A stretch of 35,196 bases of DNA from Bacteroidales bacterium (GTDB lineage Bacteria; Bacteroidota; Bacteroidia; Bacteroidales; UBA6680): positions 1-35,196 of the forward strand of contig JAFGOQ010000125.1 of assembly GCA_016926405.1 (NCBI GenBank), written 5' to 3'. Below are positions 2,897 through 35,196 of this stretch, piece after piece. Position numbers and translations under genes: made by a program. The stretch's first letter is position 1. The number at the start of each line of letters is the position of its first letter. Under the pieces are notes generated by a model, which saw only the letters and a program-made list of their open reading frames with translations, was not told the origin of the DNA and did not search any database.

Positions 2897-2937
2897 ATTA
2901 TTCACATTTTTTATCTTAAATAATACATCACAAAAAA

Positions 2938-6045: not shown

Positions 6046-6078
6046 AACTTTAAAATTTTAGTTTTACCAACAGAGTTA

Positions 6079-7605: not shown

Positions 7606-7644
7606 AACTTCAATTTTTAAGTTTGGGAACCTCTTTAAACATTC

Positions 7645-8031: not shown

Positions 8032-8120
8032 CTTTTTAAATTTTTTAGGTTTCTACCAACGGCGGTAGTATTAAAGATAATTCGCCCCTTTCAGGAGCTA
8101 AAGCCACTAAAAAGTGACCA

Positions 8121-8894: not shown

Positions 8895-9785
8895 CTACAA
8901 AACCCTCTCCGAAACAGGATCGGTATGAATTGTAACACGAATTCCTAATTCATCATCTAAGGCCTTCTCCAAGCTATCAACAAGAGTATGCGATTCGTCT
9001 AGAGTTAAATCACCAGAGAGATAAATATGGAAAACAACCTCTTTGTGCATTCCGTAATCATGAACATGAAGATTATGAACTCCTAAATTGTAATCAGTAA
9101 TTTTTGAACAAACACTATTTATATTGTCAATAAACTTTTCATCGGGAGCTTGACCAAGAAGCGGGTTTACAGCCTCTCTAATCAACTCAAAAGCAGTATA
9201 AAACATTAAAGCAGAAATCAACAAACCTAAAACACCGTCGATCCACCAAAAATACTTACCGAAGAAAATACCTACAAGAATCATTACCGATGAGATAGCA
9301 TCGCTACGGTGGTGCCAACCGTCGGCTTTAAGTGACTTGTTTCCTGTAACACGAGCACACCAAAAAGCATATTGAGCCATTGCCTCTTTTACAATTACTG
9401 ATGCAGATGTTATAATTATTGCCCACAAGCCAAAATGAACTGACTTTTTATCGGATAAAATAGAAATTGAATCGGTAAAAAACGAAAAAGCAATAACGCC
9501 AAGCAAAACACCAATTATTATTGTTATTACACTCTCTATACGTCCATGACCATAAGGATGCTCTTTATCGGCTGGCTTGCTCGAATAAAATGCGCCAAAA
9601 ATAATTATTAGCGACGAAAAGGAATCAGACAAAGTATGCCAAGCATCAACTATAAGTGCAATAGAGCCTGTAACTATACCTATCCATATTTTAGCAATAA
9701 AAAGAAAAATGTTGCCAACCAACGACACAACACCTTCACGAACTGCTATCTTTTTATTATTCAAAACTTTGTCTTTACTAGCCAT
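8895..9785 (-). CDS. Cation diffusion facilitator (CDF) family transporter
   Basis: This proton-coupled divalent-metal exporter of the inner membrane has 296 residues. Six membrane helices are followed by a C-terminal cytosolic ferredoxin-like domain (VHNLHVHDYGMHKEVVFHIYL, then ESHTLVDSLEKAL). The two metal-site motifs are visible: DAWHTLSDS in helix 2 (near residue 47) and DGWHHRSDA in helix 5 (near residue 155), so each site supplies H and D. Such H/D sites fit zinc or iron better than manganese, as family knowledge rather than proof. It is monocistronic, with its own terminator at 8806-8842, and is divergent from the Rrf2-type regulator gene. It lies next to the RND metal operon but has separate transcription, so the two probably form one metal-resistance neighbourhood. 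Confidence 0.95.
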   Translation of the reverse strand: MASKDKVLNNKKIAVREGVVSLVGNIFLFIAKIWIGIVTGSIALIVDAWHTLSDSFSSLIIIFGAFYSSKPADKEHPYGHGRIESVITIIIGVLLGVIAFSFFTDSISILSDKKSVHFGLWAIIITSASVIVKEAMAQYAFWCARVTGNKSLKADGWHHRSDAISSVMILVGIFFGKYFWWIDGVLGLLISALMFYTAFELIREAVNPLLGQAPDEKFIDNINSVCSKITDYNLGVHNLHVHDYGMHKEVVFHIYLSGDLTLDESHTLVDSLEKALDDELGIRVTIHTDPVSERVL

Positions 9786-9928: not shown

Positions 9929-10327
9929 ATGTCGAAAATCGTATCACTTTCCGAAGCTGCGTCTATTGCATTACATGGTATAATTCTTATCGCACGTTCA
10001 GAAAACAATCTTAACGTTATTAAAATTGCAGAAGAGACAGGTAACTCAAAACACCATGTTGCAAAAGTAATGCAGCGATTGGTTAAAGATGGATACATTG
10101 AGTCGCAACGAGGACCAAGTGGCGGTTTTGTTCTTAAGAAGAACCCAAAAGACATTTCATTTTTGGAAATTTACGAAACTATTGAAGGTAAAATTGAAGT
10201 TCAAGACTGCCCTATGAACAAAAAAGTTTGCCCTTTCGAAAGATGTTTAATGAACAATCTTACTAACAAACTTACTCTCGAATTTAAAGAGTATCTAGAA
10301 AAACAGATAATACAAGACTATCTGTAA
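9929..10327 (+). CDS. Rrf2-family transcriptional regulator with three-cysteine cluster
   Basis: This is a 132-residue DNA-binding protein of the Rrf2/IscR/NsrR family. An N-terminal winged helix (residues about 8-70, with the recognition segment GNSKHHVAKVMQRLVKDGYI and the wing RGPSGGFVL) is followed by a dimer helix and the cysteines C94, C101 and C106 (spacing C-x6-C-x4-C). In NsrR and IscR three cysteines in this place hold an Fe-S cluster that senses nitric oxide or cluster status. The gene directly precedes hcp, whose product handles nitrogen oxides in known organisms, so NO sensing is the best guess. Redox or iron sensing is possible. It has its own promoter and a 189-bp gap before hcp. 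Confidence 0.92.
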   Translation: MSKIVSLSEAASIALHGIILIARSENNLNVIKIAEETGNSKHHVAKVMQRLVKDGYIESQRGPSGGFVLKKNPKDISFLEIYETIEGKIEVQDCPMNKKVCPFERCLMNNLTNKLTLEFKEYLEKQIIQDYL

Positions 10328-10516: not shown

Positions 10517-12169
10517 ATGGGAATGTTTTGTTTTCAATGTCAAGAGGCTGCTAAAGGTACAGGATGTACAGTTAAAGGAGTTTGCGGAAAGAAATCTAAC
10601 GTATCGAACCTACAAGATTTACTTATACACTCTGCAAAAGGAGTAGCTGCTTATAGCTCTGAGCTACGTAATATGGGTATCACTGACAAAAAGACCAATA
10701 AATACCTATTAGAAAGTCTTTTTATCACAATTACAAATGCAAACTTCGATGATATAGCAATTATTAAAGCTGTTGAAGAGGGTGTTGAAATTAGAGATAA
10801 TCTTAAAAAACAGCTAGCTGCAAAAGGTGTTACTGCAAAATTTGCTAATCACGATGTAGCAACATGGCAATTAGGTTCTTTCGAAGAGAATACAGCAAAA
10901 TCAGAATCTGTTGGTGTTCTTAGAACAGAGAACGAAGATGTTCGTTCTCTACGTGAACTAATAACATACGGGCTTAAAGGTTTAGCTGCTTACGCTCACC
11001 ATGCAATGAACCTAAATAAAGAGCAAAATGAAATTTATGCTTTTATTGAAAAAGCTCTACTTGCTACTATCGATGATACACTTTCTGCTGATCAGCTTGT
11101 TGCATTAACACTTGAAACAGGTAAATATGGTGTTGACACAATGGCTCTTCTTGATTCTGCTAACACCGAAGCATACGGAAACCCAGAAATAACAGAGGTA
11201 AACATAGGTGTAAGTAACAAACCTGGAATCCTTATCTCAGGTCACGACTTAAAGGATATTGAAGAATTACTTGCTCAAACAGACGGAACAGGTGTTGACG
11301 TTTACACACACAGCGAAATGCTTCCTGCTCACTACTATCCTGCTTTTAAGAAATACAAACACTTTATAGGCAACTACGGTAGCTCTTGGTGGGCTCAGAA
11401 CGAAGAATTTGAAACATTCAACGGACCTATTCTTTTCACAACAAACTGTATTGTTCCACCAAAATCGACAAGTAAATATGCCGATAAGGTTTACACAACA
11501 GGTGCGTCAGGGTTCCCTGGATTTAAACACATTGCCGACCGTACAGAAGGTGGCGCTAAAGACTTTAGCCAAATTATTGAGCATGCAAAAAAATGTGCTG
11601 CTCCAACTGAAATTGAGACAGGAACAATTGTTGGCGGATTTGCTCACAATCAAGTTCTTCAGTTAGCCGATAAAGTTGTTGACGCTGTAAAAACAGGTGC
11701 TATACGCAAATTCTTTGTAATGGCTGGTTGCGACGGTAGAATGAAAGACAGAAACTACTACACAGAGTTTGCTGAAAAACTTCCAAAGGATACTGTTATC
11801 TTAACTGCTGGTTGTGCTAAATATAGATACAACAAACTTCAACTTGGCGATATAGGAGGAATTCCACGCGTACTAGACGCAGGTCAATGTAACGATAGTT
11901 ACTCGTTAGCTGTTATTGCTCTTAAACTTAAAGAGGTCTTCGAACTAAACGACATTAACGAACTACCAATAGCATACAACATTGCATGGTACGAGCAAAA
12001 AGCTGTTATTGTTCTTTTAGCACTTCTTTCATTAGGCGTTAAGAACATACATTTAGGGCCAACATTACCAGCATTCTTATCGCCAAACGTAGCTAAGGTA
12101 TTAATTGAAAACTTTGGTATTGCCGGAATAGGCACTGTTGACGATGATATGAAGATTTTCTTATCGTAA
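10517..12169 (+). CDS. hcp: Hybrid cluster protein (hydroxylamine reductase / NO-handling)
   Basis: This 550-residue cytosolic Fe-S protein is known to reduce hydroxylamine in vitro, and in enterobacteria it acts on nitric oxide. The N-terminal cysteines C5, C8, C17 and C23 (C-x2-C-x8-C-x5-C) bind a cubane cluster, the spacing usual in anaerobes. The ligands of the hybrid cluster are all visible: H243, E267, C311, C405, C433, C458, E493 and K495. These are one position short of the numbering I remember for the Desulfovibrio vulgaris protein. No Hcr reductase gene lies nearby, so electrons must come from another donor. It follows the Rrf2-type regulator gene and is probably controlled by it. 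Confidence 0.97.
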
Positions 12170-12646: not shown

Positions 12647-13585
12647 ATGATAATTACAGTAGCATTAATACTATCGGTACTATTCCAGTTTAGTGCATTT
12701 TTCATTACAATATCGCTAATCCGCAAAACTAAATTCAATATTTCGTGGATAGCATTATCTGTGGGTTTTGCCCTAATGGCTTTTCGACGACTTTTAGTAC
12801 TTATTGATATAAGCAATAATCCACACAGTCATATTGAAGATAATTTTGACAGTTGGATTGCAGTAATAATATCATTACTGATGTTTATAGCATCATTTTA
12901 TATAAGACAAATTTTCAGACTTCAAAGTAAGATTAACAATCTTCGAAAAGAGAACCAGACTAAAATATTGTCAGCCATCATTAAAACAGAAGAACGCGAG
13001 CGTCAAAAATTCGCAAAAGAGCTACACGATGGTTTAGGCCCAATACTATCGTCTATAAAAATGTCACTTTCCGCAATTGATAAATCTATTATGAATCCAA
13101 AAAACGAACTTATAATAGACAAAACAGAAATGGCTGTAGATAATGCAATAATATCTATTAAAGAGATTTCCAACAATTTAAGTCCTCATATTTTAGAGCG
13201 TTTTGGTTTAGAAAAAGCTATTAAAACATTCACCGACACTATTGTAACATGTGAGAAACTAAACATACTAGTATCGTCAAATTTAAACGGCAAACGCTAT
13301 AACTATAATATCGAAGTAGTTATTTACAGAGTAATTGGCGAACTAATAACCAACACATTAAAACATGCTTCAGCATCTAATGTCGATATATCACTATTCA
13401 ATTATCCAAATAAATTGGAACTATTTTATTCAGACAATGGCATAGGTTTTAAAATAAACAATATTGACAGCAGTGGCATGGGACTAGTAAACATAAACTC
13501 CAGAGTAAAATCGCTAAATGGCTCTGTTGACATGTACAGCAAACCAAAACAAGGTTTTTTCATTAAAGTAACTATACCGCTATGA
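12647..13585 (+). CDS. Sensor histidine kinase, NarL/DegS type (HisKA_3)
   Basis: This is the membrane sensor kinase of a two-component pair. Three hydrophobic helices (about residues 2-24, 32-54 and 69-90) form the N-terminal part with only a very short outer loop, so sensing may occur within the membrane or in the cytosol. The dimerisation domain carries ERERQKFAKELHDGLGP with the phosphorylated His at H127. The ATPase domain shows the N box GELITNTLKHA, the G1 box DNGIGF and the G2 box GMGLVNI. The last codons overlap the response regulator gene by 4 bp (ATGA), so the two are translationally coupled. The signal is unknown. The position between hcp and the ABC/GTPase module suggests control of one or both. 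Confidence 0.93.
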   Translation: MIITVALILSVLFQFSAFFITISLIRKTKFNISWIALSVGFALMAFRRLLVLIDISNNPHSHIEDNFDSWIAVIISLLMFIASFYIRQIFRLQSKINNLRKENQTKILSAIIKTEERERQKFAKELHDGLGPILSSIKMSLSAIDKSIMNPKNELIIDKTEMAVDNAIISIKEISNNLSPHILERFGLEKAIKTFTDTIVTCEKLNILVSSNLNGKRYNYNIEVVIYRVIGELITNTLKHASASNVDISLFNYPNKLELFYSDNGIGFKINNIDSSGMGLVNINSRVKSLNGSVDMYSKPKQGFFIKVTIPL

Positions 13586-14226
13586 CTCCAAAATTAAAAA
13601 TATTTATTGTCGACGATCATAATTTATTTAGAGAAGGGCTATTATTTCTGCTATCTAACAGTAATTTAGAAGCTGATATTTACGAAGCTGAAAATGGCGA
13701 ACAATTTTTAGATAAATTTCAATTAATTAATCCTGATATAATTTTAATGGACATTGAAATGCCAGTTATTAATGGTATTACTGCAACATACGAGGCTCTT
13801 AAAATAAATCCAGAATTAAAAATTATTGCCCTTTCGATGTACGGTAATGAAAACTATTACACAGAGATGATTGATGCTGGCGCAAAAGGTTTTCTATTAA
13901 AAAACTCAAAATTCGATGATGTTAGAAATGCTATTTTAGACGTTTACAGTGGTAAAAATTATTTCTCACCTGAGATTCTCGATGGCATCATAAAAAACTT
14001 AAACAAGAAAAAATATAAAAAAGCCAATTATAATCTATCTGAACGTGAAGTAGAAATATTGTATAATATATGCAAAGGTTTATCAAACCACGAAATTGCA
14101 GATAATTTATTTATAAGCAAACGCACTGTCGACAAACACCGCGAAAACATATTGCTTAAAACACAATCAAAAAACACTGCCGAATTAGTAGTATACGCCA
14201 TTAAAAATAAAATCTTTGAAGTGTAG
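13582..14226 (+). CDS. Response regulator, NarL/FixJ type (REC + LuxR HTH)
   Basis: This 214-residue DNA-binding partner of the preceding kinase has a receiver domain (residues 5-120) with the acidic pair D11/D12, phospho-acceptor D57 (ILMDIEMP), S85 and K107. The C-terminal LuxR-type helix-turn-helix is LSEREVEILYNICKGLSNHE, then IADNLFISKRTVDKHRENI. All key residues are present, so it should be functional. Targets are not known. The nearest candidates are the repeats at 12301-12331 and the inverted repeat in front of the ABC-ATPase gene at 14322-14350. Confidence 0.95.
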   Translation: MTPKLKIFIVDDHNLFREGLLFLLSNSNLEADIYEAENGEQFLDKFQLINPDIILMDIEMPVINGITATYEALKINPELKIIALSMYGNENYYTEMIDAGAKGFLLKNSKFDDVRNAILDVYSGKNYFSPEILDGIIKNLNKKKYKKANYNLSEREVEILYNICKGLSNHEIADNLFISKRTVDKHRENILLKTQSKNTAELVVYAIKNKIFEV

Positions 14227-14295
14227 ATTTTTATAAGTAGAAACACGTACATCTACTATTTAAAACCTATAATTTTTAATTACGCTTTAATACTG

Positions 14296-14326
14296 TTTTA
14301 TTGCACACATTAGTTATACAATTTTG
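14296..14326 (+). promoter_or_regulatory. Candidate promoter of the module 1 operon
   Basis: TTTT (14296-14299, 3 of 4 for TTTG), 19 bp, then CAATTTTG (14319-14326, 7 of 8 for TAnnTTTG). The -7 box is the same octamer as in the Rrf2 gene promoter. Transcription would start near 14333, about 24 nt before the ATPase start codon. Confidence 0.4.
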
Positions 14327-14350
14327 TATTAGCACCTTACTAATACAAAA
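14322..14350. promoter_or_regulatory. 11-bp perfect inverted repeat across the module 1 transcription start
   Basis: TTTTGTATTAG (14322-14332) and CTAATACAAAA (14340-14350) are perfect complements around a 7-bp centre. The left arm overlaps the -7 box and the right arm ends 6 bp before the ATG at 14357. It can act as an operator, or as an RNA hairpin covering the translation start. Confidence 0.55.
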
Positions 14351-14356
14351 ATTAAA

Positions 14357-15124
14357 ATGCATATTATAGAAAACATAACAATAATAGGAGGTTTTGATAA
14401 AAAAGGCAATCCAGAAATTATAACCGAACTAATTGTTAACAAAGGCGAAATTATTGGCATCGTAGGGCCAACAGGAAGTGGAAAAAGTCAACTAATATCA
14501 GACATAGAACAGTTAGCTCAATTTGACACATCATCGAAACGACAAATTCTTATTAACGGCAAAACACCTAGCTACGAGCTCAGAAATAACCCACGAAAAA
14601 AAATGGTTGCACAACTGTCGCAAAACATGAATTTTGTAGCGGACATGACTGTTACTGAATTTCTTACTCTTCATGCCAAATGCCGTGGTAAATCAATAAA
14701 TGACGTAGGTAAAATTATTACTCTAGCAAACGAATTGACTGGAGAACCTATTAAACAAAACGATAATCTTACAATATTAAGCGGAGGACAATCGAGAGCA
14801 TTAATGGTTGCCGACGTTGCTATTATTAGCGAATCGCCTATTGTTTTAATTGATGAAATTGAAAATGCAGGAATAAAAAAATACGAAGCATTAGAATTAT
14901 TGTCGGGACAAGGAAAAATTGTTTTAGTTGTTACTCACGATCCCGTTTTGGCATTAACATCTCAAAAAAGAATATTTATGAAAAACGGAGCAATGCAAGG
15001 TATAATATTCAGTACCGTAGAAGAAAGAATTGCGTCGGAAAAACTAAATATCATTGATAAAAACATGCTAGTATTACGTGAAAAAGTACGAGCAGGCGAA
15101 ACTATCACCAATATAAATTTCTAA
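14357..15124 (+). CDS. Soluble ABC-type ATPase, module 1
   Basis: This 255-residue ABC nucleotide-binding domain has no membrane segment. Walker A is GPTGSGKS (37-44), Q-loop candidates lie in AQLSQNMNF (85-93), the signature is LSGGQS (141-146), Walker B is IVLIDE (162-167), and the switch histidine is H194 (VTHD). The tail ends [14 protein letters not shown]. It is closely related to the ATPase at 19289-20305: both have [34 protein letters not shown] and the same tail pattern. It lacks the N-terminal extension of that paralogue. No permease gene is nearby, so a transport role is doubtful. The next gene, 15 bp on, encodes a HypB/UreG-like GTPase, the same pairing as in module 2. I infer a soluble energy-dependent role in metal or cofactor handling. 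Confidence 0.92.
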
Positions 15125-15139
15125 AAAAACATTTAAATA

Positions 15140-15838
15140 ATGAAGTTAATAATTGTTGCTGGCACACCTGGAGCAGGAAAAACATCTATTCTTTTACATA
15201 CAATTAAAATACTAAAACAATCATACAAACCTTCGGTGGTTAAAATAGACTGCCTTAATACTGATGACGACAAGCGATTTGCCAAACTTGATGTTCCTGT
15301 ATTATTGGGCTTAGCAAAAGACATGTGTCCTGATCACTTCTCTATTTATAATATTCAAGAGATGATTGAATTTGCAAATAAAAACAAATCGGATATGTTA
15401 ATTATGGAGACTGCAGGCTTATGTCACCGATGCGCTCCATACACAAACAATAGTATTGGTGTTTGCATTATTGATGCCACAAGTGGACCAAATAATCCAA
15501 CTAAGGTAGGACCATTTTTAAGTAGTGCCGACATTGTTGCTATTACAAAAGGTGATATTATTTCGCAAGCAGAACGCGAAATTTTTAGAGAACGTATTCT
15601 TGAGGTTAATCCTAATTGTAAAATTATCGATATGAACGGAATATCTGGACAAGGTGCTGCCGAGCTTGCAAATATGATAAGCAAAATAACTATTTGCGAA
15701 TCAAAAACAGACTCTTTAAGACACAATGCTCCATTTTCGGTTTGTACTCTTTGTGTTGGTGAAAAAAGAGTTGATAAAAAACACCATCGAGGTTTGCTAC
15801 GAAAAATGGATGGTTTTCAACAATACATAGGGGAATAA
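15140..15838 (+). CDS. HypB/UreG-like GTPase with conserved cysteines, module 1
   Basis: This 232-residue SIMIBI-class P-loop GTPase is related to the nickel-insertion GTPases HypB and UreG. The Walker A motif is GTPGAGKT (8-15), the base-recognition motif is TKGD (137-140), and SGQGAAEL lies near the end of the G domain. Cysteines stand at C38, C63, the pair C95-x2-C98 in [11 protein letters not shown], and the pair C202-x2-C205 in the tail. All of them have counterparts in the paralogue at 20298-21002. That conservation suggests metal or cluster binding coupled to GTP hydrolysis. No hydrogenase or urease genes are present, so the client is unknown. It sits 15 bp after the ATPase gene and 14 bp before the Fe-S protein gene, so it is almost certainly in one operon. 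Confidence 0.9.
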
Positions 15839-15852
15839 AAAAAGATATTATT

Positions 15853-16512
15853 ATGATAAAAGATATTATTAAAAGCCTGCCTGGATATAATTGCGGAAAA
15901 TGCGGATGCTCTAGATGCGACGACTTTGCCGAAGAGCTATTACGTAACAATAAAAAAATACTAGATTGTTCCGTATTATCATTCGAAGAATTTAAAGATA
16001 ATAGGCTAAACATCGAAAAAGTTTTAGAAAACAACCCAAACACAATAGCATATAACGAAAAAATTATTGGATTAATAGACTCATACCAAGCCGATATTAC
16101 CTTAGATCCTATTGATGGAAGCAACTCATGCACTGAGGTATTACTACCAACATCGAATCATAAATTAAGAATAAACGATATAGTTAAATACCGACCATTA
16201 GGTTGTCCAATAATACATTTCGCTAGAATAGTTGAAATTAACGGGTTACTACTTTCAGTACATATTATAGGTCCAGAAAACAGAATTACAAACAGTGTTG
16301 ATAAATCAATAGACATTGGGCCATGTATAATTATTGCTTTTCATGGTAAGTATAAAGGCAAAAACATAAAAGTTGGTGAAACAATTCGCTTTTTACCATC
16401 GCATTGTATGATGCAAAAAGTACACTCTGGAGTAGTTGTTAACATTGAGAATAATAATGTAATAATTGAGGGAATAGATTTAAAAGTGTGGGATACACCT
16501 AAAACCTATTGA
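15853..16512 (+). CDS. Four-cysteine Fe-S protein with unknown C-terminal domain
   Basis: The N-terminus matches the short Fe-S domain found in RnfB and in the corrinoid Fe-S protein of acetyl-CoA synthase (PF04060 type): PGYNCGKCGCSRCDDFA, with C14, C17, C22 and a distant C39 as likely ligands, plus an extra C19. The remaining 150 residues are mostly beta-strand-like. They carry PLGCPIIHFARI (C118, H122), DIGPCIIIAFHG (C158) and GETIRFLPSHCMMQKVHSG (C185, H191), so a second metal site is possible. I do not recognise this domain. The cytosolic product (no signal peptide) probably donates electrons or a cluster to the ATPase/GTPase pair, judged only from its place in the operon. Confidence 0.85.
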   Translation: MIKDIIKSLPGYNCGKCGCSRCDDFAEELLRNNKKILDCSVLSFEEFKDNRLNIEKVLENNPNTIAYNEKIIGLIDSYQADITLDPIDGSNSCTEVLLPTSNHKLRINDIVKYRPLGCPIIHFARIVEINGLLLSVHIIGPENRITNSVDKSIDIGPCIIIAFHGKYKGKNIKVGETIRFLPSHCMMQKVHSGVVVNIENNNVIIEGIDLKVWDTPKTY

Positions 16513-16537
16513 TTAAAACTTTAACAATTTAAATACT

Positions 16538-17563
16538 ATGCTTATACCATTCATAATTCCTTTTATTATTGCCATATTTCTTTCGCTAAACATGGGAGGC
16601 AGCGGCACCGGACCAGCATTCTCTGCTGCTTTTGGAGCAAATATTATTAAACAGAGTTTAATATCTGGTTTATTCGGTATAGCTGTATTTATTGGAGCCA
16701 TTGTAGGAGGTGAAGAAACAGCCAAGACTGTTGGAAAAGGTTTAATAAACCCCAACTTAATGTCATTTACAGTTGTCTCAATAATTCTATTTTCGGTTAG
16801 CATATCGTTACTAATAGCCAACTTATTTGGAATACCTCAATCAACTAGTCAGTCAACTGTGCTTGCTATAATAGCACCAGCAATATACTTTAATTCGTTA
16901 AATTCAGACAAACTGCTATTCGAAGTATTACCAACATGGTTTATAATGCCTATTGCTGCTTTTGTTATTTCATTTATAATAGGCAAATATATCTACAAGC
17001 CAATACGTAAAAAAGGTTACACAATATCCAAAAGAGTTAATAACAGCCCTATTGTAAAAGGATTAATACTTCTTATGTCGTTATATGTAGCATTCTCAAT
17101 AGGAACAAATAACGTAGCAAATGCTGCTGGACCTTTAGCCACAATGGCTAGCAACGAATTAAATATTGCTCAAAATCATGCTGCCCATGTAATGATTTTA
17201 GCCACACTTATTGTTGCACCTAGTTTTGGTATAGGTAGTTCGTTTTTTGGAAACAAAATTTTACATAAAACAGGAAAAGACATTATACTTTTTGGTAGAA
17301 TTGAAGCTGTTATTATAGCTTTTATTTCGGGTAGTCTATTACTTACAGCATCATTAATAAAAGGAATTCCAACTTCGTTAGTTCAACTTAATGTAGCTGC
17401 AATAATAGGCATTGGTGTAGCTAAATTGGGAGCAAAAAACATCTTCAGAAAAACTGAAGTAAACAAATTTTTTGTTATGTGGCTTGTCTCTCCATTAATA
17501 GCATTTATACTATCGCTAGGTTTAATATACTTAGCCGACAAAATAAATATTTTGTATTTGTAA
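16538..17563 (+). CDS. PiT-family-like anion permease, module 1
   Basis: This is an integral membrane protein of 341 residues with about ten helices in two inverted halves, of the inorganic phosphate transporter (PiT) superfamily. The second half carries SIGTNNVANAAGPLATM, close to the GANDVANAxGP signature. The first half has NMGGSGTGPAFSAAFGAN in the equivalent place and so lacks the usual AND motif. This looks like the branch that includes sulfate permeases (CysP type), so the substrate may be another oxyanion rather than phosphate. It is the last gene of the module 1 operon, 25 bp after the Fe-S protein gene, followed by a strong terminator. It may supply the anion that the module handles, by inference. 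Confidence 0.88.
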   Translation: MLIPFIIPFIIAIFLSLNMGGSGTGPAFSAAFGANIIKQSLISGLFGIAVFIGAIVGGEETAKTVGKGLINPNLMSFTVVSIILFSVSISLLIANLFGIPQSTSQSTVLAIIAPAIYFNSLNSDKLLFEVLPTWFIMPIAAFVISFIIGKYIYKPIRKKGYTISKRVNNSPIVKGLILLMSLYVAFSIGTNNVANAAGPLATMASNELNIAQNHAAHVMILATLIVAPSFGIGSSFFGNKILHKTGKDIILFGRIEAVIIAFISGSLLLTASLIKGIPTSLVQLNVAAIIGIGVAKLGAKNIFRKTEVNKFFVMWLVSPLIAFILSLGLIYLADKINILYL

Positions 17564-17917: not shown

Positions 17918-18649
17918 CTACAATATTTTTTTAGCAATAACAATAAACGCAAAACTTGATTCCGAATTAAAAGGTGACTTTTTAAAATCGCCATAAGTGG
18001 CATTAATTTTAAAGCCATACGATTCAATTCTGCGCAAAATTTCGTCAGGCAAGAAAGGCGTTAACACCTCACTATTTTCAAACAACTCGCCAGTCTCTTT
18101 CACAGTCAGCTTAGTGTTAAAACTAACTCTCCCATCGGCTCTATGCCAATTATATTCGCGCTCAAATTTCACAACATCGTTCTCAATAAGCGGTAATACC
18201 GACTCTTTATCAGCGTCGAATCTATCGTAATTAACAACTTGAAAAATTAGTTTCCCATCATTATTAAGTCGCTTGTAAATATTGTTAATAACTATGTCTA
18301 GCTCACCAATATTATTTAAATGAGCAATGGTATTACCTATACAATAAACCAAATCAAAAGAGTTATCAACAAAAACCAAATCAAAATTTAGCATATTACC
18401 AATAGCTATTCTATCTTTTTGCTTCTTTTCGGCTACTCTGTTTTTGGCCAGCAAGATCATATCATTATTAAGATCAATACCAAATGCGTTATGCCCTTTA
18501 TCTATTAAGAAAGGTAAAAAACCTCCCATTGAACAGCCAATATCGAGAATATTTGCAGACTGATGTGGCAAAAAACTTCCAATAAAATCGGTTTTAATTT
18601 TATCAACAGGAAAAATAAAGTCGTAGTAATTAGCGATTGAACTATACAT
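17918..18649 (-). CDS. Class I SAM-dependent methyltransferase
   Basis: This 243-residue cytosolic enzyme has a Rossmann-type fold. Motif I is ILDIGCSMGGF (34-44), an acidic residue follows strand 2 (AFGIDLNNDM), and motif IV-like VYCIGNTIAHL lies near residue 105. FKINATYGDFKKSPFNSESS near the end is typical of small-molecule methyltransferases of the ubiquinone/menaquinone type. The substrate cannot be read from the sequence. It lies between the two ABC/GTPase modules on the strand of module 2, but a 307-bp gap separates it from the last module gene. I would not count it as part of the system without expression data. Confidence 0.9.
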   Translation of the reverse strand: MYSSIANYYDFIFPVDKIKTDFIGSFLPHQSANILDIGCSMGGFLPFLIDKGHNAFGIDLNNDMILLAKNRVAEKKQKDRIAIGNMLNFDLVFVDNSFDLVYCIGNTIAHLNNIGELDIVINNIYKRLNNDGKLIFQVVNYDRFDADKESVLPLIENDVVKFEREYNWHRADGRVSFNTKLTVKETGELFENSEVLTPFLPDEILRRIESYGFKINATYGDFKKSPFNSESSFAFIVIAKKIL

Positions 18650-18956: not shown

Positions 18957-19199
18957 TTAATAATTGATTCCTGCTGCCATAATATTTTTTGGATCAAATG
19001 CGTGGCAAGGTGTAACGGCATAAACCATATTACATGTTGGGCATTTGCAGCAAAATTCAGCCATTTCAAATGTGCTTCCACATTCTACACACTCTATTTC
19101 CATTGGCATTGGCATTAACTGATCGGCAAAACCCATCATACGTACCTTATCCGCCACCTGTTTTCCATTCTCAAAACTTCCTGAACATCCGTCGTGCAT
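18957..19199 (-). CDS. Small Cys-rich zinc-ribbon-like protein, end of module 2
   Basis: This 80-residue cytosolic protein has cysteines C5, C37, C40, C50, C51, C53, C56 and C65 followed by H66. The core IECVECGSTFEMAEFCCKCP (residues 35-54) then TCN has two Cys pairs in zinc-ribbon or rubredoxin-like spacing. The N-terminus is also methionine-rich (MMGFADQLMPMPM). It is the last gene of the module 2 operon, 89 bp behind the ATPase gene across a palindromic repeat. A role as metal carrier or adaptor for the ATPase/GTPase pair would fit but is not shown. I do not recognise the family. Confidence 0.8.
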   Translation of the reverse strand: MHDGCSGSFENGKQVADKVRMMGFADQLMPMPMEIECVECGSTFEMAEFCCKCPTCNMVYAVTPCHAFDPKNIMAAGINY

Positions 19200-19288: not shown

Positions 19289-20305
19289 CTAGATAACTGA
19301 AGTAATAACCTCACCATTACGAATTCTGTGTCGTAAATTCTGAACAACTTTATCCATTTCATTAAGCTCTGTAAGCAATTCACGCTCTTTATCTGTTGTA
19401 TTTAAAACCTTATGAATTCCACCATTCTTAATAACAATTCTACGATCGCCCATAAGAGCTAAAATTGGATCGTGAGTAGCCATAAGCACAATTTTCTCTT
19501 CGCCAACAAGAAGCTCAAGCGCCTTTTTACGATCGATACCAGCGTTCTCAATCTCGTCGATAAGCACAATAGGGCTTTTACTAAGAATAGCAGTATCAGC
19601 AATCATAAGAGCACGACTTTGTCCACCACTAAGACTAGTTATCGGTGTTGATAACTCAAACTTCTCGCCAGCCAAATTATTTGCCGAAGCAATAATACGC
19701 TGAATTACATCCTCAATATTTTCAACCAAACGGCTCTGAGCATGAAGCTCTAAAAATTCGTACACAGTTAAGTCCATCACAAAATTCATATTCTGCGAAA
19801 GCTGCGCTACCAACTTATTACCAGACGACAATCGCCATTTTTTATCAGACACCTCGCCGTTAATAAGAATTGATCGCGATGTAGGTGTATCTTTCTGAGC
19901 TACCCACTCTATATCGCCCAACAGTCGGCTTTTTCCCGATCCTGTAGGACCAACAATACAAACAATCTCGCTTTTCTTAATTGTAAGCGCTTCGAAATTC
20001 TCCTTTTCGCCAAACTTATTTGTTCCTGGTAAAATTGTAAGACTATCGACACCACTATCAGTATCGTCACCTAAAAACAAAAGCATCTGGTTAATATATT
20101 CAACCAACGAATTTTCCATTGTATCGAAATCAATGGCACGATCTTCGGCCTCATCATCGTCGAATTTGCGAATAAAATCGCTAAACGAAAGTTGCTCGTT
20201 TGTATCAATCTCTAAACTTTGATCCGACAAAAAACCATCAACAAAAGGGTATTTATTGCGAAGCTCGGCAATAGGAATCCTCTTTATATCCTGAATATTA
20301 ATCAT
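19289..20305 (-). CDS. Soluble ABC-type ATPase with DUF1858-like N-terminal extension, module 2
   Basis: This is a 338-residue paralogue of the ATPase at 14357-15124. Residues about 110-338 are the ABC domain: Walker A GPTGSGKS (119-126), Q-loop region AQLSQNMNF (168-176), signature LSGGQS (225-230), Walker B IVLIDE (246-251), switch His H278, and tail LRHRIRNGEVITSV. The first 83 residues are extra and begin IPIAELRNKYPFVDGFLSDQ. That stretch has the helix pattern of DUF1858 domains and resembles the head of the binding-protein-like product of the same operon, so it may be a docking or shared ligand domain. There is no membrane segment and no permease nearby. The start overlaps the GTPase stop by 8 bp, implying coupled translation. 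Confidence 0.92.
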   Translation of the reverse strand: MINIQDIKRIPIAELRNKYPFVDGFLSDQSLEIDTNEQLSFSDFIRKFDDDEAEDRAIDFDTMENSLVEYINQMLLFLGDDTDSGVDSLTILPGTNKFGEKENFEALTIKKSEIVCIVGPTGSGKSRLLGDIEWVAQKDTPTSRSILINGEVSDKKWRLSSGNKLVAQLSQNMNFVMDLTVYEFLELHAQSRLVENIEDVIQRIIASANNLAGEKFELSTPITSLSGGQSRALMIADTAILSKSPIVLIDEIENAGIDRKKALELLVGEEKIVLMATHDPILALMGDRRIVIKNGGIHKVLNTTDKERELLTELNEMDKVVQNLRHRIRNGEVITSVI

Positions 20306-21002
20306 TTTTTTCGCCCTCCATATTTATTTTACGAACATTACCCATTTGGTACGAAGCACCAATTCTTGTTTCGCCAAGACAGTACGAACACATAGCCGAC
20401 GGCATCGAGAAACGTAATTTCTTACCAACCAATGTATCAACATCTGTTTTTTCGTCGTACAATAGCGTGCTAAGTTCAAATGCACCTTGCCCAGTAAGCC
20501 CGTTAACATGCATTGTAATAGCCGAAGGATTCACCGTCTGCACTCGCGATGCAAAAACCTCACGCTCTGCCTGCGAAACAATGTCGCCCTTAGTTATAAT
20601 AACTATGTCGGCCATTTTCAACATTGGCCCAACCTTTTTTGGAGTATTAATCCCACTAAGATTATCTATTACACAAATAGACTTAATATCTTTAATATAT
20701 GGCGAACAGCGATTACACAAACCTGCACTCTCGGTTATCAGCAAGTCGAGATCTAAACCACGCCCCCACTGAGCAACCTCTTCTACATTACTAACAAAGT
20801 AATGATCGGGGCATTGCGAACCCGAAAGCCCTTTACGCACAGGTACACCGGCTTTCTCATACAACTTATCGTCGTCGGTAGCAAGACAGTCAAACTTAAC
20901 AACACCAACCTTCAAACCACGATTTTTAATGGCATCAATTGTTTTTATAATTACCGAGGTTTTTCCTGTTGAAGGAGGCCCCGAAAATGTAACTAGATTC
21001 AT
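20298..21002 (-). CDS. HypB/UreG-like GTPase with conserved cysteines, module 2
   Basis: This 234-residue paralogue of the GTPase at 15140-15838 has Walker A GPPSTGKT (8-15), TKGD base recognition (137-140) and GLTGQGAFEL. C39 (DCLATDDDK), C64 (CPDH), C96-x2-C99 (SAGLCNRCSPY) and C205-x2-C208 (MCSYCLGETR) all line up with the module 1 protein. The P-loop and switch regions look intact. HypB and UreG use cysteines near the active site to bind nickel, so GTP-gated metal transfer is a reasonable inference, but the client and metal are unknown. The 8-bp overlap with the following ATPase gene and the 57-bp gap from the cupin gene place it in the middle of the operon. Confidence 0.9.
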   Translation of the reverse strand: MNLVTFSGPPSTGKTSVIIKTIDAIKNRGLKVGVVKFDCLATDDDKLYEKAGVPVRKGLSGSQCPDHYFVSNVEEVAQWGRGLDLDLLITESAGLCNRCSPYIKDIKSICVIDNLSGINTPKKVGPMLKMADIVIITKGDIVSQAEREVFASRVQTVNPSAITMHVNGLTGQGAFELSTLLYDEKTDVDTLVGKKLRFSMPSAMCSYCLGETRIGASYQMGNVRKINMEGEKND

Positions 21003-21058: not shown

Positions 21059-21397
21059 CTACAATATTTTTGTTTTAGCCTCTGGTCTAGGTGCTTTAGT
21101 TACCAATATTCTTGCAATTACATCGCTTTCATTACTTATATAATGAACAATATTAGCAGGACTCTCAATCAACGTATCTTTTTCAAAGGCTAACATCTCG
21201 TCTGCAATATGTATTGTTGGAGTACCTTCTAAAACATAAAAGAACACATCGACAGGTGTTTTATGTGGCTTTAAAGCTTCTCCTGGCAATAAGGTTATGT
21301 GCATTACCTGTGCCGAAGCATCGTTATACAATTGTCTAACATCTACTTTGTGCGGATTTTCTTTTATTGGTTCTGAATTAAAATTTCTGTGTATCAT
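21059..21397 (-). CDS. Small single-domain cupin protein, module 2
   Basis: This 112-residue cytosolic cupin has a first motif PGEALKPHKTPVDVFFYVLEG. It retains one His (H44) and the Glu and Gly, but has Thr where the second His usually stands. The second motif has DTLIESPANIVHYI with its His. With two His and one Glu left, a metal could still be bound, though more weakly than in classical enzymes. Small cupins of this kind often bind a ligand or metal rather than catalyse. It is the second gene of the module 2 operon, 60 bp after the binding-protein-like gene. The substrate is unknown. Confidence 0.85.
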   Translation of the reverse strand: MIHRNFNSEPIKENPHKVDVRQLYNDASAQVMHITLLPGEALKPHKTPVDVFFYVLEGTPTIHIADEMLAFEKDTLIESPANIVHYISNESDVIARILVTKAPRPEAKTKIL

Positions 21398-21457: not shown

Positions 21458-22693
21458 CTACTTAACAGCATTATTAAAAAGCCCTTCACATTTAGTTATA
21501 AGAGAGCCTATGTCATTATTATAGATATAATCCCAACCAACCCACATAAATTTATTATCGGCTGGTAAATTATTATCAACATCGGGATGAACACTTGGAA
21601 ACAACCCCTGATGAGAAAGCAATTCGCCAATCTCTTTCGACATAAACACATCGGCAATGGCTTTAATTTTATCCCTTTTACTCTTCTTAGTCAACATAAA
21701 AATTGGACTAATAATAGCTCCATCTTTAGGCCAAACAGCTTCCATACTGCTTCCTGGTTTTACCATTTTTGTAAAGAAATAAGGCATAATTGTAACAGCA
21801 GGCTTATCGGTCTTACTTCGTTCAGATTTAACCATTTGCGCAGGATGCATACTTACTAAAAGATTTCTACCTAAACCTTCAACCCCTTTGTCGCCATATT
21901 TCTGATGAATATGCAACATCATTGCATTAAACAAATCGAAATCAGAAACGGGTAAACTAATGCTATTCTCAAACTCTGGACTTAAAACATCTTCCCAAGT
22001 TTGTGGAATTCCACGTCCTTTTAATTCATTTTTATTTACTAGAAAAACAGCAGGCACTGCGGCAATTATCGAATAAAAACCCTTTGGGTCTTTAAGCGAA
22101 AGGTAGTCATTCTGAAAATCCGAATTATAACTCTCAAAATCCGAAAAATCTTCGAAAACACCTTTATTCATGAATTTACCCATAAGATCTTTCTCGAAAA
22201 AAAGATCGAAACCAGCCGATAAGAATATATCCGATAAATCGTCTTCTTTAGTTACCGAACGAACATAATTCTTAATTCCGTCAAGTCCCATTGATGCAGC
22301 CTGAAGGCTAGTTTCAACAGTAAGTCCGCTACCCTTCTGAAAATCGTCTAAAAAGGCATCCAACTTTTCAACCAAAGGCAAACGAACAGGACAAGGCAAT
22401 AAACCTTCAATGCGAATATCTTTACGTCCTGTAATAATCCCTTTTACCGACTCTTTATCGGTATTATATTTATTCTGATTAATAACTTCAACTAATAACT
22501 GCTGAATTGCAGAAAGACTAATCTGCTTAATTGTAGCCGCAACCTTAAGAGTAATCTGTTTACCGAAAGTAATTCGTTTACTCTCTTCTGCTATTTGCGA
22601 AAAACCCTGTGCTAAAAGCACATTAAGTGTCTCAGGATATCGCTCAGTAATATCGAACAACGAATCATCTACTTTAAAATAACTGTTTTCCAT
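21458..22693 (-). CDS. DUF1858-type domain fused to a cytosolic type II binding-protein fold, module 2
   Basis: This 411-residue protein starts with a DUF1858-like helical domain (SLFDITERYPETLNVLLAQG, residues about 11-30, then a region to about 70). The CxxC usually found in the redox version is absent. From about residue 95 it resembles iron-type substrate-binding proteins of ABC importers (COG1840/AfuA-like): LVNKNELKGRGIPQTWEDVL, SPEFENSISLPVSDFDLFNA and PKDGAIISPIFMLTKKSKR. No signal peptide, lipobox or membrane helix is present, so it should stay in the cytosol. It is the first gene of the operon containing the GTPase and ABC ATPase and no permease. I infer an internal ligand-binding component. 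What it binds is unknown. Confidence 0.88.
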   Translation of the reverse strand: MENSYFKVDDSLFDITERYPETLNVLLAQGFSQIAEESKRITFGKQITLKVAATIKQISLSAIQQLLVEVINQNKYNTDKESVKGIITGRKDIRIEGLLPCPVRLPLVEKLDAFLDDFQKGSGLTVETSLQAASMGLDGIKNYVRSVTKEDDLSDIFLSAGFDLFFEKDLMGKFMNKGVFEDFSDFESYNSDFQNDYLSLKDPKGFYSIIAAVPAVFLVNKNELKGRGIPQTWEDVLSPEFENSISLPVSDFDLFNAMMLHIHQKYGDKGVEGLGRNLLVSMHPAQMVKSERSKTDKPAVTIMPYFFTKMVKPGSSMEAVWPKDGAIISPIFMLTKKSKRDKIKAIADVFMSKEIGELLSHQGLFPSVHPDVDNNLPADNKFMWVGWDYIYNNDIGSLITKCEGLFNNAVK

Positions 22694-30526: not shown

Positions 30527-33500
30527 TTATTTCTTTACAAACTGCTTAACAACTACTCCTTTGTCAACAAAGGCTCTTAATATATAAACTCCCGATTGAA
30601 GATTACTTACATCAATACCTATCTCATATGAATTAAGTTTAGTTGAGTAAACCACAACACCTGCAACGTTTGATATTGTAACCTCGCCAATTAACTCGCT
30701 ACCTTTTATATTTAAGGTTGAAGCAACTGGGTTAGGATATACTTTTATTGCATCAGACAATATATTATCTATAGCTGTTACTTTTGAAAGCGAAACTGCT
30801 TTAGATACCTTTTGATTTGTTACGGCAATCTCTCCTGTTTGTGTTTGATAACCCTGTGCCGATACCGAATACTTATAGTTTCCTGCAATTACATTCTCTA
30901 TAACTACAACACCATTTGCATTAGTTGTAAAATCGCCATAGTTATCACCCTGTGCAACTCCAGCAGTATTAACTGCGCTATTAAAAGATACAGTAGCATT
31001 AGCTATTGGACTTGTACCATTAGTAATGGTAAAGCTTACTGGGAAAACAACTAAAGTTGCAGCAAAATTATTGTCTGTCTTATTCTCATTAACATTAGTA
31101 AACGAATATTTTTCAGGCTCAAAACTGTATCCATCCTTACTTGCTAAGACCTCTAAATTTTGTCCGTAGTTTACTGTAAAGCTATAGCTATCGCCATCGT
31201 TTAATGTTTTACTATCGCTTGCATCACCACTTAACGAAACTGTAACACCATCGGCTCCGGTTACTTTACCAGAAATAGTATAACTGTTAATGCAGAAATT
31301 TGCGGTGTAAGCTACTTCCAGATCTGATACAGTTGCTCCAAACGCATACTCCTTGCTATTTTCATCTGTCCAATTTATAAATGTATGCCCCTCTTTTGTT
31401 GATTGAGGTAAGACAAATGAACTTATATTATTATCCGAAAAAGCATCATTTCCAATATAAGTAACATTATTAGGAATGGTTACACTAGTTAGGTTATTCG
31501 ACTCAAAAGCTTTATCTCCAATAGAAGTAACGCTATTAGGAATAGTTATATTTGTTAGTCTATTATCGCAAAACGCATATTTCCCTATAGAAGTAACACC
31601 ATTAGGAATTACTACATTAGCTAATTGATTATACGAAAAAGCATAATCTCCAATCGATACTAATGAATTTGGCAATTCTATTATTGCAAAGCCTTTAGCA
31701 CAGAATACCCCAAATCCATCAACTCCATCAGCTATACCAACAACAGTTTGACCATCTAAAGTTTCGGGAATAGTAATACATCTTGCTGCAAGATTGTAAC
31801 TACAACTTTGTATTACACCATTGGTAACAACAACATCGTCGTCTTTTAATGTGTATAAATCAGAGATTGCTATATATGTACTATAAGAGGCACTCACCGT
31901 TTCTCCTCCAGAGTAATTATTACCGTTAGTATCAATCCAGTTAATAAATGATACTCCATCAATTATTGGTGTTGGTAACACAAATGATAATAAGCTACCA
32001 GCTACACCAAAGGCATTTCCTCCAATAAATGTAACACTATTAGGAATGTTTACACTGGTTAGTTTATTGCCAGCAAATGCATCGTAACCAATAAATGTAA
32101 CACCATTAGAAATATTTACGCTAGTTAATTGATTATAAGAAAAAGCACTATTACCTATAAATCTAACACTATTAGGAATGTCTACGCTAGTTAATTCATT
32201 GTAGTAAAATGCTTCGGCTCCAATAAACGTTACACTTTTAGGAATATCTACATTAGTTAACTCATTGTTACTAAATGCTAAGAGTCCAATATGAGTTAAA
32301 GTATTAGGTAATTTAACTTTTAAAATACCTTTATTACCAAATACACCACTATCATCATTATAATCATCAGCTATCCCAACAACCGTCTGACCATCTAGTG
32401 TTTCTGGTATTACTATATCCTTAATAGCAAAATCATAACTACAACTCTCTATTACACCATTAGTAACCACAACGTCGTTGTCGGTAAGTGTGTACCTACT
32501 CAAAACTGCAGAAAAATCATTCTCTGTTTTATTCTCTGTAATATTTGCAAATGAATAATTTTCTGGAGTAAACTTATAATTAGTTTTTTTTGGAGTAACT
32601 GTTACCGACTTTCCTTTCTCAACAGTAAATGTATACTTTTCTCCATTATTTACAGTTTTTAAATCAGCAACATCACCACTTAATTCAACAGTAACATCAT
32701 CAGCACCAGTAACTGTTCCAGAAATTGTATATTTAGGTTCAGAAAACTGAGCAGTGTATTCAAGTGCAAAATCATTTATCTCTGCACCGTTGTTGTAAGC
32801 TTTTCCATTATTATCTTTCCAATTATCAGAATTTAAACCACCCAAAATGGCTGTAGGTAATTTTAAGAATGGTAAACTAAAATTATAATTAAATGCACCT
32901 AGTCCTATTTTAATTACTGTTTTAGGAATTACAACACTAGTTAATTTATTGTTTTCAAAAGCACTCTCTCCAATAATTAAAACACCTTCTGGTATATTAA
33001 GTGTATTTATTAGATTCTTTACAAACGCATTTGTTCCAATTGTTGTAACGCTCATTGGAATATCAACATTAGTCAATCTATTTCCAAAAAATGCATTACT
33101 ACCAATATTTTTAAGGGAAATTGGTAATTTAATATTTTCTATTCCATTATTTCCAAAAACTCCACCAAACAAGTCTCCTATCCCCACAACAGTCTGTCCA
33201 TCGAGAGTTTCAGGAATAACAATATCCTTAATAGCAAAGTCGTAGCTACAGCTTTGTATTACACCATTGGTAACAACTACGTCGTTGTCGGTTAGTATAT
33301 AATAGCTAGAAATATCTTCTAAATTTGCTGTATACGATTCCCACAAACTTGTAACAACAGCTCCTGCTGAATAAGAGGTGTTTTTACTATCTTTCCAATC
33401 GATAAGATTAAACCCACTAATATTTGGTGTTGGTAGCGTTAATGATGTTAAATTAGTGTTTTCGGAAAAAGCTGCTTCTCCTATTGTTGTAACACCTGTA

Positions 33501-34537
33501 CCAAAAGATATATTTTTAATTTCGTTTTTACTAAAACACTGTTTACCTAGAGTACTTACACTGTTTGGAATAACAATTTTAGATAGTTTATTAATCTTAA
33601 AAGAGTACTCACAAATAGTTTTTACACTTGCGGGAATAGTTACATCAACTATCTTATTATTATAAAAAGCGTTAATACCAATCTTTGTTAGAGTTGATGG
33701 TAAAAACACCTTTACAATCCCCTTATTAGCAAATACACCGTCTATATTTTTATCGGCTATTGCTGTTACAGTCTGACCATCTAAAGTTTCAGGAATAGTA
33801 ATACATGTTGATGCAAAATTGTAACTACAACTCTCTATTACTCCATTAGTAACCACAACATCGTCATCGGTAAGAGTGTAACTTACAACTGCTGTATAAT
33901 TTGTTGCAAAATCGGTAACAGATGCTCCACCAGCATATTCTTTACCATTACCATCTATCCAATTTATAAAATTGCCATTTGATAATACTGGCGTTGGTAA
34001 AGTAATAGACAACAAACCAGGATTACTAATAAAAGCTTCTGCCTTTATTAGTGTTACTCCTGTTCCTAGAACAACTTCAGTAATTTTATTAGTTGAAAAA
34101 GCGGCATTTCCAATAACACTCACACTATTAGGTATGGTAATACTTGTTAGCTTATTATTTATAAACGCCCACTCTCCTATTTCTTTAACACTTTCGGGAA
34201 TAGTTAATTCCGTAATATTATTCTTATAAAAAGCATAATTACCAATTTTGGTTAGTGTATTAGGAATTACAATTTTCTCAATCCCTTTATTGTAAAAAAC
34301 ACCATTGTACCAGCTTTTATCCTTAATCCCAACAACTGTCTGTCCATCTAAAGTTTCAGGAATAACAATGTCTTTAATAGCAAAATTGTAACTACAGCTT
34401 TCTATTACTCCATTGGTAACCACAACGTCGTTGTCGGTTAAGGTGTATTGTTGGGCTTGCACTGCTTGGGCACTGCCAACAATAAAAATTAATAGGCCTA
34501 ATAGCCTTACTCTTGTTTGGGTAAAAATTCTTTTCAT
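30527..34537 (-). CDS. Five-module BspA-like leucine-rich-repeat surface protein with T9SS sorting domain
   Basis: This is a secreted or cell-surface protein of 1336 residues. A signal peptide (1-28) is followed by five modules starting near residues 31, 220, 413, 682 and 895. Each opens with a header of the form YTLTDNDVVVTNGVI then ESCSYNFA then IPETLDGQTV, continues with several LRR_5 repeats of the type LTSVTIPNSVTSIGDKAF, and closes with an FINWTDENSKEYA-type segment. A beta domain (YTISGTVTGADDVTVELSGD type) appears twice, near 603 and 1086, and a carboxypeptidase-regulatory-like domain lies near 1168-1250. Residues about 1255-1336 are a type A C-terminal sorting signal of type IX secretion (VYPNPVASTLNIKG to KQFVKK). 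BspA relatives mediate adhesion; the ligand here is unknown. The modules are nearly identical in parts, inviting recombination. Confidence 0.95.
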   Translation of the reverse strand: MKRIFTQTRVRLLGLLIFIVGSAQAVQAQQYTLTDNDVVVTNGVIESCSYNFAIKDIVIPETLDGQTVVGIKDKSWYNGVFYNKGIEKIVIPNTLTKIGNYAFYKNNITELTIPESVKEIGEWAFINNKLTSITIPNSVSVIGNAAFSTNKITEVVLGTGVTLIKAEAFISNPGLLSITLPTPVLSNGNFINWIDGNGKEYAGGASVTDFATNYTAVVSYTLTDDDVVVTNGVIESCSYNFASTCITIPETLDGQTVTAIADKNIDGVFANKGIVKVFLPSTLTKIGINAFYNNKIVDVTIPASVKTICEYSFKINKLSKIVIPNSVSTLGKQCFSKNEIKNISFGTGVTTIGEAAFSENTNLTSLTLPTPNISGFNLIDWKDSKNTSYSAGAVVTSLWESYTANLEDISSYYILTDNDVVVTNGVIQSCSYDFAIKDIVIPETLDGQTVVGIGDLFGGVFGNNGIENIKLPISLKNIGSNAFFGNRLTNVDIPMSVTTIGTNAFVKNLINTLNIPEGVLIIGESAFENNKLTSVVIPKTVIKIGLGAFNYNFSLPFLKLPTAILGGLNSDNWKDNNGKAYNNGAEINDFALEYTAQFSEPKYTISGTVTGADDVTVELSGDVADLKTVNNGEKYTFTVEKGKSVTVTPKKTNYKFTPENYSFANITENKTENDFSAVLSRYTLTDNDVVVTNGVIESCSYDFAIKDIVIPETLDGQTVVGIADDYNDDSGVFGNKGILKVKLPNTLTHIGLLAFSNNELTNVDIPKSVTFIGAEAFYYNELTSVDIPNSVRFIGNSAFSYNQLTSVNISNGVTFIGYDAFAGNKLTSVNIPNSVTFIGGNAFGVAGSLLSFVLPTPIIDGVSFINWIDTNGNNYSGGETVSASYSTYIAISDLYTLKDDDVVVTNGVIQSCSYNLAARCITIPETLDGQTVVGIADGVDGFGVFCAKGFAIIELPNSLVSIGDYAFSYNQLANVVIPNGVTSIGKYAFCDNRLTNITIPNSVTSIGDKAFESNNLTSVTIPNNVTYIGNDAFSDNNISSFVLPQSTKEGHTFINWTDENSKEYAFGATVSDLEVAYTANFCINSYTISGKVTGADGVTVSLSGDASDSKTLNDGDSYSFTVNYGQNLEVLASKDGYSFEPEKYSFTNVNENKTDNNFAATLVVFPVSFTITNGTSPIANATVSFNSAVNTAGVAQGDNYGDFTTNANGVVVIENVIAGNYKYSVSAQGYQTQTGEIAVTNQKVSKAVSLSKVTAIDNILSDAIKVYPNPVASTLNIKGSELIGEVTISNVAGVVVYSTKLNSYEIGIDVSNLQSGVYILRAFVDKGVVVKQFVKK

Positions 34538-34859
34538 GTGATTAATTTTATAACCGCGAAAACTAATGGTTAATAACTATGTAAGCGTTTTATATTTCTT
34601 GGTTATGATTAAGATTTATTTTAGAAACGCTAAAGGTATAAAAAAGAGTAATCTGTTTAAACGTTGTTTTATTAACATTATAATTTCTCCCAAAAAGTTA
34701 TTAACAATATTTATGTGTTGAATAATGCAATATTTCAACTAAACATATAACTACAGAAACTTACACCAGCTAACAAACTATTATTTAACATAATACCGTT
34801 TTAAACTATTCCCCAATCAAATTATTAATATTAATATGATACCTAATAATTCTACCACT

Positions 34860-35196
34860 GAACTAGCAATAATTTTCTGGTGAACGATAGTTTGCAACAC
34901 TTGATCAGCTATAATTTTCTGGTAAACGATAGTTTGCAACACTTGACTAGCAATGATTTTCTGGTAAACGATAGTTTGCAACACTTGATTTGCTCTAATC
35001 TTCTGAAAAACGATAGTTTGCAACACTTGATTAGCTATGAATTTCTGGAAAACATTAGTTTGCAACACTTGATTAGCTATAATTTTCTGGTAAACATTAG
35101 TTTGCAACACTTGATTAGCTATAATTTTCTGGTAAACGATAGTTTGCAACACTTGATTAGCTATAATTTTCTGGTAAACGATAGTTTGCAACACTT
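34860..35196. repeat. 42-bp tandem repeat array, cut by the window edge
   Basis: Eight copies of a 42-bp unit stand head to tail without spacers. Its most constant part is GATAGTTTGCAACACTTGA. Copies near 34860-35060 are diverged, and those toward the right edge are nearly identical, so the array probably grows on that side and continues past 35196. The unit is a multiple of three, and frames stay open on both strands: on the minus strand VLQTIVYQKIIANQ repeats until a stop at 34817, and on the plus strand LISYNFLVNDSLQH repeats. Because both are open and neither resembles a known family, I call it a minisatellite. The minus frame could be the tail of a repeat protein beginning beyond the window. 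Confidence 0.95.

Follow-up and report, generated by a model that had tools for sequence, protein, structure and literature searches.

A cytosolic DUF1858-headed binding protein and its soluble operon, linked to the HcpR regulon and the hybrid cluster protein

Introduction

What purpose would an ABC-type substrate-binding protein (SBP) serve if it never left the cytoplasm? The question is raised by a gene in the window, that is, the whole 35,196-nucleotide stretch of Bacteroidales DNA analysed here. The original prediction, made from the sequence, took its product for an iron-type SBP in which a DUF1858-like helical domain replaces the signal peptide, and proposed that, alongside a permease-less ABC ATPase, it takes part in an internal hand-off of ligand rather than in uptake. 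The gene and those that follow it on the minus strand are:

21458..22693 (-): DUF1858 (residues 9-61) joined to a cytosolic SBP_bac_6 domain (residues 151-393), from profile matches, an AlphaFold model and 36 orthologs
21059..21397 (-): small cupin (PF07883), in the window operon
20298..21002 (-): HypB/CobW-like GTPase, overlapping the ATPase gene
19289..20305 (-): soluble ABC ATPase with an N-terminal helical domain of ~80 aa resembling DUF1858, from motifs and a model
18957..19199 (-): 80-aa HypA-like protein, with an MH[DE]GC start, a CxxC...CPxC zinc ribbon and a PC[HS] motif
17918..18649 (-): SAM methyltransferase after the operon, membership uncertain

A binding protein without an export signal

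The reading frame is real and runs on the minus strand from 22693 to 21458, the strand having been left unstated in the original prediction; its 411-aa product contains both of the motifs that had been cited for it, QTWEDVL and SPEFENSISLP. Profile searches bear out the DUF1858 head at residues 9-61 (Pfam PF08984, 40.9 bits against a cut-off of 32.2, E 2e-10) and, over residues 151-393, the identity as a binding protein (SBP_bac_6, PF13343, 261.8 bits against 24.6, E 8e-78). In the AlphaFold model (pLDDT 85.5) the head is helical, a linker near residues 75-88 is disordered and the rest is a binding-protein body; the model matches solved binding proteins, the closest in Foldseek being P5PA, AfuA, FbpA and FutA (E about 1e-14 to 1e-11, best 2.5e-14). 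Among the 36 orthologs the motifs LPCP-R, SAGFD, HP..MVKS, MPYFFTKM and WP.DG are invariant. A 2-aminoethylphosphonate binder was considered and rejected (18 bits against a cut-off of 393), and comparison with PHROGs gave no match.

The lack of an export signal likewise holds. The N-terminus is hydrophilic, the most hydrophobic 12-mer of the first 45 residues averaging 1.08 on the Kyte-Doolittle scale, where exported SBPs encoded at related loci reach about 3.2; a TAA codon stands six codons upstream with no ATG, GTG or TTG in between, such that there is no upstream start from which a signal peptide could be read; and neither a signal peptide nor a lipoprotein anchor was found, the first cysteine occurring no earlier than residue 101. 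The same is true of the family, since a signal peptide is absent from 36 of the 36 aligned orthologs, every one of which begins in the same DUF1858 domain. As judged from these sequences, the cytosolic nature of the SBP is well supported. The DUF1858 domains of the TIGR03980 type (Hcp-associated redox-disulfide) are characterised by a cysteine pair. The head of the SBP is not of this type, having no cysteine before residue 101, and the TIGR03980 model finds no match in it at E<=1.

The description 'iron-type' fares less well. It is true that the fold neighbours include ferric-binding proteins, with FbpA, FutA, AfuA and P5PA all sharing the SBP_bac_6-type fold, but they also include binders of sugar phosphates and of PLP, and iron is a candidate ligand. 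Moreover, where FbpA has two adjacent ferric tyrosines the SBP has an invariant Tyr305 followed by Phe, a presumed correspondence drawn through the FbpA motif rather than by structural superposition. The SBP further departs from these four proteins in its DUF1858 head, in a cysteine (Cys101) at the first cleft loop, and in lacking both export signal and permease. Within this group, FutA1 has been described as a predominantly intracellular SBP (PMC6254336).

A conserved soluble operon

A genome scan returned 80 relatives of the SBP, of 49-81% identity, from Bacteroidota, Clostridia, Spirochaetes, Cloacimonadota, Neomarinimicrobiota, Aminicenantes and Acidobacteria; in a Bacteroidota-wide search of 296 genomes the SBP was found in the window's own genome only. 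Across phyla the gene order is SBP-GTPase-ATPase-HypA-like-(Hcp), with frequent gene overlaps, and in the window the cupin is placed between SBP and GTPase. When the neighbourhoods were clustered, the GTPase cluster covered 79 loci (the window included), the ABC ATPases 74 and the zinc-ribbon protein 53, figures in which some absences stem from contig ends and start calls, and in which the ATPase cluster also took in unrelated transporter ATPases. Full-length copies lie directly downstream of the SBP for 72 ATPases and 76 GTPases. The Hcp gene follows or neighbours the operon in 27 SBP loci, typically as the next gene. No permease was found as an operon member in any of the 80 neighbourhoods, and with neither signal peptide nor permease the automatic reading of the SBP as part of an importer is rejected. 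The existence of a soluble, multi-phylum SBP operon is well supported.

Other neighbours are more sporadic. The small cupin also adjoins Rrf2 or SBP genes in eight further loci, mostly of Cloacimonadota. The SAM methyltransferase lies 3' of the operon in the window and in its two closest relatives, and other methyltransferases adjoin the paralogous trios described below. In two Spirochaeta MAGs (L040, L042) a ferric-reductase-like FAD/NAD membrane protein is encoded directly 3' of the operon (L040:9135-10490).

The partner proteins

The GTPase family retains the motifs GPPSSGKT, CPDH, GLCNRCSP, TKGD and a C-terminal CSYC, and its invariant residues include C64-P-D-H67, C96-x-x-C99, C110 and C205-x-x-C208. 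Its closest solved relatives are HypB and UreG. In alignment with HypB (2hf8), C64 and C96/C99 fall at or beside the metal-site cysteines, which we take to be zinc ligands of HypB, with the histidine offset by two residues from that of HypB. In HypA the nickel site is the N-terminal Met-His, and an N-terminal Met-His together with a CxxC/CxxC zinc ribbon is found in the HypA-like protein (54 sequences). The module in this regard resembles the HypA-HypB pair of nickel insertion into [NiFe] hydrogenase. It differs from that pair in several respects: the GTPase stays under the cut-off of the HypB family TIGR00073 (NCBIfam; 54 against 121 bits); the HypA-like protein, of only 80 aa, gives a weak, sub-threshold match to Pfam HypA over the ribbon (PF01155, E 4e-4; 16.1 bits in the window and 21.0 in L038, against a cut-off of 28.9); an ABC ATPase and an SBP are added; and the genetic linkage is to Hcp instead of hydrogenase.

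The ABC ATPase has the ABC fold with its catalytic motifs intact (Walker A and B, signature, H-switch). The soluble, permease-less SmsC2 of M. jannaschii (9h7x), from an Fe-S assembly system, is among its top fold matches, a likeness to SufC/SmsC that does not extend to the partners, since the module has SBP, GTPase and HypA-like proteins where SufC/SmsC has SufB/D. The modelled helices of its N-terminal domain lie near the DUF1858 positions of the SBP (12-18, 22-28 and 60-78). Because the profile comparison with DUF1858 is weak (E 7e-4, probability 26%) and a Pfam search of the domain gave no match, this head is described here as a predicted resemblance to DUF1858 only.

Regulation

Two further genes of the window bear on how the operon may be controlled and what it may serve:

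9929..10327 (+): regulator of the Rrf2 family that has a cluster of three cysteines and lies upstream of hcp; in Spirochaetes and Cloacimonadota, members of this family stand at the head of the SBP operon
10517..12169 (+): hybrid cluster protein Hcp, matching NF003658 at 867 bits; probably a client or partner

The box GTAACnnnnGTTAC, defined for HcpR2 by Rodionov and colleagues (PMC1274295), occurs in exact form ahead of the SBP gene at 35 of the 79 loci with starts as called, against a mean of 0.0 in shuffles and 25 of 827 other upstream regions. Setting the starts by protein alignment adds five Marinifilaceae, giving 40 of 79. The half-sites are constant, the spacer is variable, and the box also lies upstream of Hcp in 15 of 28 cases. 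Moreover, the Crp/Fnr regulators that neighbour the operon mostly have Arg-Pro at their DNA-reading positions, the pair tied to this box in HcpR2 in that paper. In its box, its Arg-Pro regulators and its hcp neighbour the operon is like the HcpR regulon as set out there; the DUF1858-SBP operon itself does not occur in the consulted passages of that paper or of a C. difficile study (PMC12915319).

The box is lacking upstream of the SBP in the window and its two closest relatives, and in 19 Rrf2-led SBP loci; the Clostridia loci L098-L107 and the paralogous trios (L133-L138) have none either. The CRP-like box of HcpR1, TGTGA-N6-TCACA, was also considered and shows no clear excess. Spirochaetes and Cloacimonadota have at the head of the operon a gene for an Rrf2 regulator whose cysteines are usually clustered, and in the window the Rrf2 gene precedes hcp, 10 kb from the SBP. 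On the evidence of these DNA motifs and regulators, the link of the SBP operon to the nitric oxide (NO)-responsive HcpR regulon is well supported, and in many anaerobes the operon would be switched on together with the enzymes of nitric-oxide defence.

Association with Hcp and flavodiiron proteins

Of 291 genomes sampled evenly from one Clostridia class, 14 bear the SBP, two of them in distant forms, and Hcp exceeds its cut-off in all 14; in the sample as a whole it does so in 138 (Fisher P = 2e-5, with relatedness ignored). Genomes of the same sample with Hcp and without the SBP system are numerous; Hcp therefore does not always need it. Among the 49 genomes that host SBP relatives, 45 have a gene of the Prismane family, which also covers CO dehydrogenase. 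Three Aminicenantes MAGs and one Spirochaeta MAG carry the operon and lack a Prismane gene, so that, unless these assemblies are incomplete, Hcp is not the sole client. All four encode a flavodiiron protein, a type common in anaerobes, and flavodiiron genes directly adjoin the operon in two Clostridia loci (L099, L100) and lie nearby in Marinifilaceae.

CO dehydrogenase is a relative of Hcp, and its maturation by CooC/CooT/CooJ similarly employs an accessory NTPase, although the protein families differ and neither an SBP nor an ABC ATPase is involved. For assembly or repair of the hybrid Fe-S-O cluster that Hcp carries, we know of no dedicated factor that has been assigned. According to a 2026 survey, the neighbourhoods of Hcp genes hardly lend themselves to the extraction of meaningful information (PMC13056359).

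Paralogous modules

When the same 291 genomes were searched with the GTPase, paralogous pairs of GTPase and ATPase came to light, most of them accompanied by short SBPs that have neither DUF1858 nor signal peptide. Some adjoin metal-chelate importers of the FecCD type and methyltransferases (L133, L135, L136). Since the partners of these pairs vary, the GTPase-ATPase pair appears to be a shared engine whose binding subunits can be swapped, employed in metal-related contexts.

Individual loci are of interest in their own right. In L137 (9112-16753) a trio of GTPase, ATPase and cytosolic SBP stands directly upstream of NifH/NifDK-like genes together with a FecCD-type importer, in a nitrogenase-like cluster that is uncharacterised; in L134 (9612-12088) the genes after the pair encode a putative heavy-metal-chelation protein (DUF4213/DUF364) and a methyltransferase. 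The window itself has a second module at 12647-17563 (+), which begins with a NarL-type two-component system and continues with:

14357..15124 (+): paralogous ABC ATPase that lacks the N-terminal domain
15140..15838 (+): paralogous HypB-like GTPase
15853..16512 (+): Fe-S domain protein (PF04060), in the place of the SBP
16538..17563 (+): PiT/sulfate-permease-like transporter

This arrangement recurs in two Marinifilaceae loci (L112 and L113). Its Fe-S protein is present in 2 of 49 host genomes, which places the second module outside the core system.

Proposed function

Internal hand-off of a ligand stands as the natural reading of an SBP that shares its operon, over several phyla, with a permease-less ABC ATPase. 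What the original prediction had missed are the two partners that resemble HypB and HypA, the link to Hcp and the nitrosative-stress control by HcpR or Rrf2, features which point to maturation or repair of a metallocentre. The reading that we favour, at a probability of roughly one half, is that the DUF1858-SBP, the ABC ATPase, the HypB-like metal GTPase and the HypA-like zinc-ribbon protein, all soluble, form a machine of the NO response that loads or repairs metallocentres of Hcp and, in some lineages, of a flavodiiron NO reductase, with the SBP as the ligand-binding subunit. The cleft of the SBP would capture, within the cell, a metal ion or a small complex of one, iron being the likeliest metal; the DUF1858-like domains of SBP and ATPase would hold the two proteins together; ATP-driven closing of the ATPase dimer would force the ligand out of the SBP; and the HypA/HypB-like pair, under the control of GTP, would pass the metal to an apo or NO-damaged metallocentre of Hcp or of the diiron NO reductase. 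Weighing against this reading are the operons without Prismane in four MAGs, the Hcp-bearing genomes without the system, the missing HcpR box in the window and the HypA and HypB assignments that fall below cut-offs.

An alternative is that the system has no dedicated client and acts in general repair or scavenging after NO stress, the SBP sequestering iron or dinitrosyl-iron complexes from damaged clusters while ATP and GTP drive their recycling to whichever Fe-S or diiron proteins need them. This would parallel the presumed iron handling of RIC/YtfE. DUF1858 is kin to ScdA_N, a domain of RIC proteins, which would fit this alternative, as would the flavodiiron genes beside the operon and an Aminicenantes locus (L036) that lies in the NO regulon without hcp. 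That hcp is nevertheless the direct operon neighbour in many loci, and that a HypA/HypB-like pair suggests directed insertion, makes general repair appreciably less probable than a machine that serves Hcp. Less probable again is a sensory role, whereby the cytosolic SBP would report a small metabolite (a sugar phosphate, PLP or a nitrogen species) and the ATPase and GTPase would be signalling switches: the sugar-phosphate- and PLP-binding proteins among the closest solved folds suit it, whereas the conserved Cys/His metal motifs of the GTPase and HypA-like protein and the metal-related contexts of the paralogs do not. As for an ordinary importer, with its permease encoded elsewhere and its SBP exported by an unrecognised route, the SBP and ABC ATPase folds and the full set of ATPase catalytic motifs are what it would require; confronted with orthologs that uniformly lack a signal peptide (36/36), an operon permease in 0 of 80 loci, a DUF1858 N-terminus and HypB-like and HypA-like partners, it is hardly credible.

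The operon offers a concrete and testable candidate for an assembly or repair factor of the Hcp hybrid cluster, as well as a hypothesis of function for DUF1858; in it an ABC-type binding protein would serve as an intracellular carrier of a metal or cofactor. Recognition of these SBPs as cytosolic would also correct their likely automatic annotation as transporter components. The component families are known; their combination of SBP, GTPase, ATPase and HypA-like protein has no earlier description in the open-access full text that was searched, subscription literature lying outside that search, and is apparently undescribed; it may form a class of its own. More tentatively, cytosolic SBPs with a paired ABC ATPase and metal GTPase and no membrane part could constitute an undescribed class of machines for different metallocentres (Hcp or flavodiiron proteins in the NO response, a nitrogenase-like enzyme, imported metal chelates), of which the DUF1858 version would be the first dedicated maturation or repair factor of the hybrid cluster; we regard this wider proposal as possible and somewhat doubtful.

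Other features of the window

Elsewhere in the window, the translations suggest a metal-efflux RND-type operon with His-rich small proteins at 1639-8537 (-), followed by a cation diffusion facilitator at 8895-9785. On reading, the frame at 30527-34537 (-) appears to encode a secreted protein of 1336 aa in which LRR_5/BspA-like repeats are numerous and a sorting domain forms the C-terminus. At the contig edge, a reading frame of tandem QTIVYQKIIANQVL-type repeats (34817-35194, -) is probably a noncoding DNA repeat.
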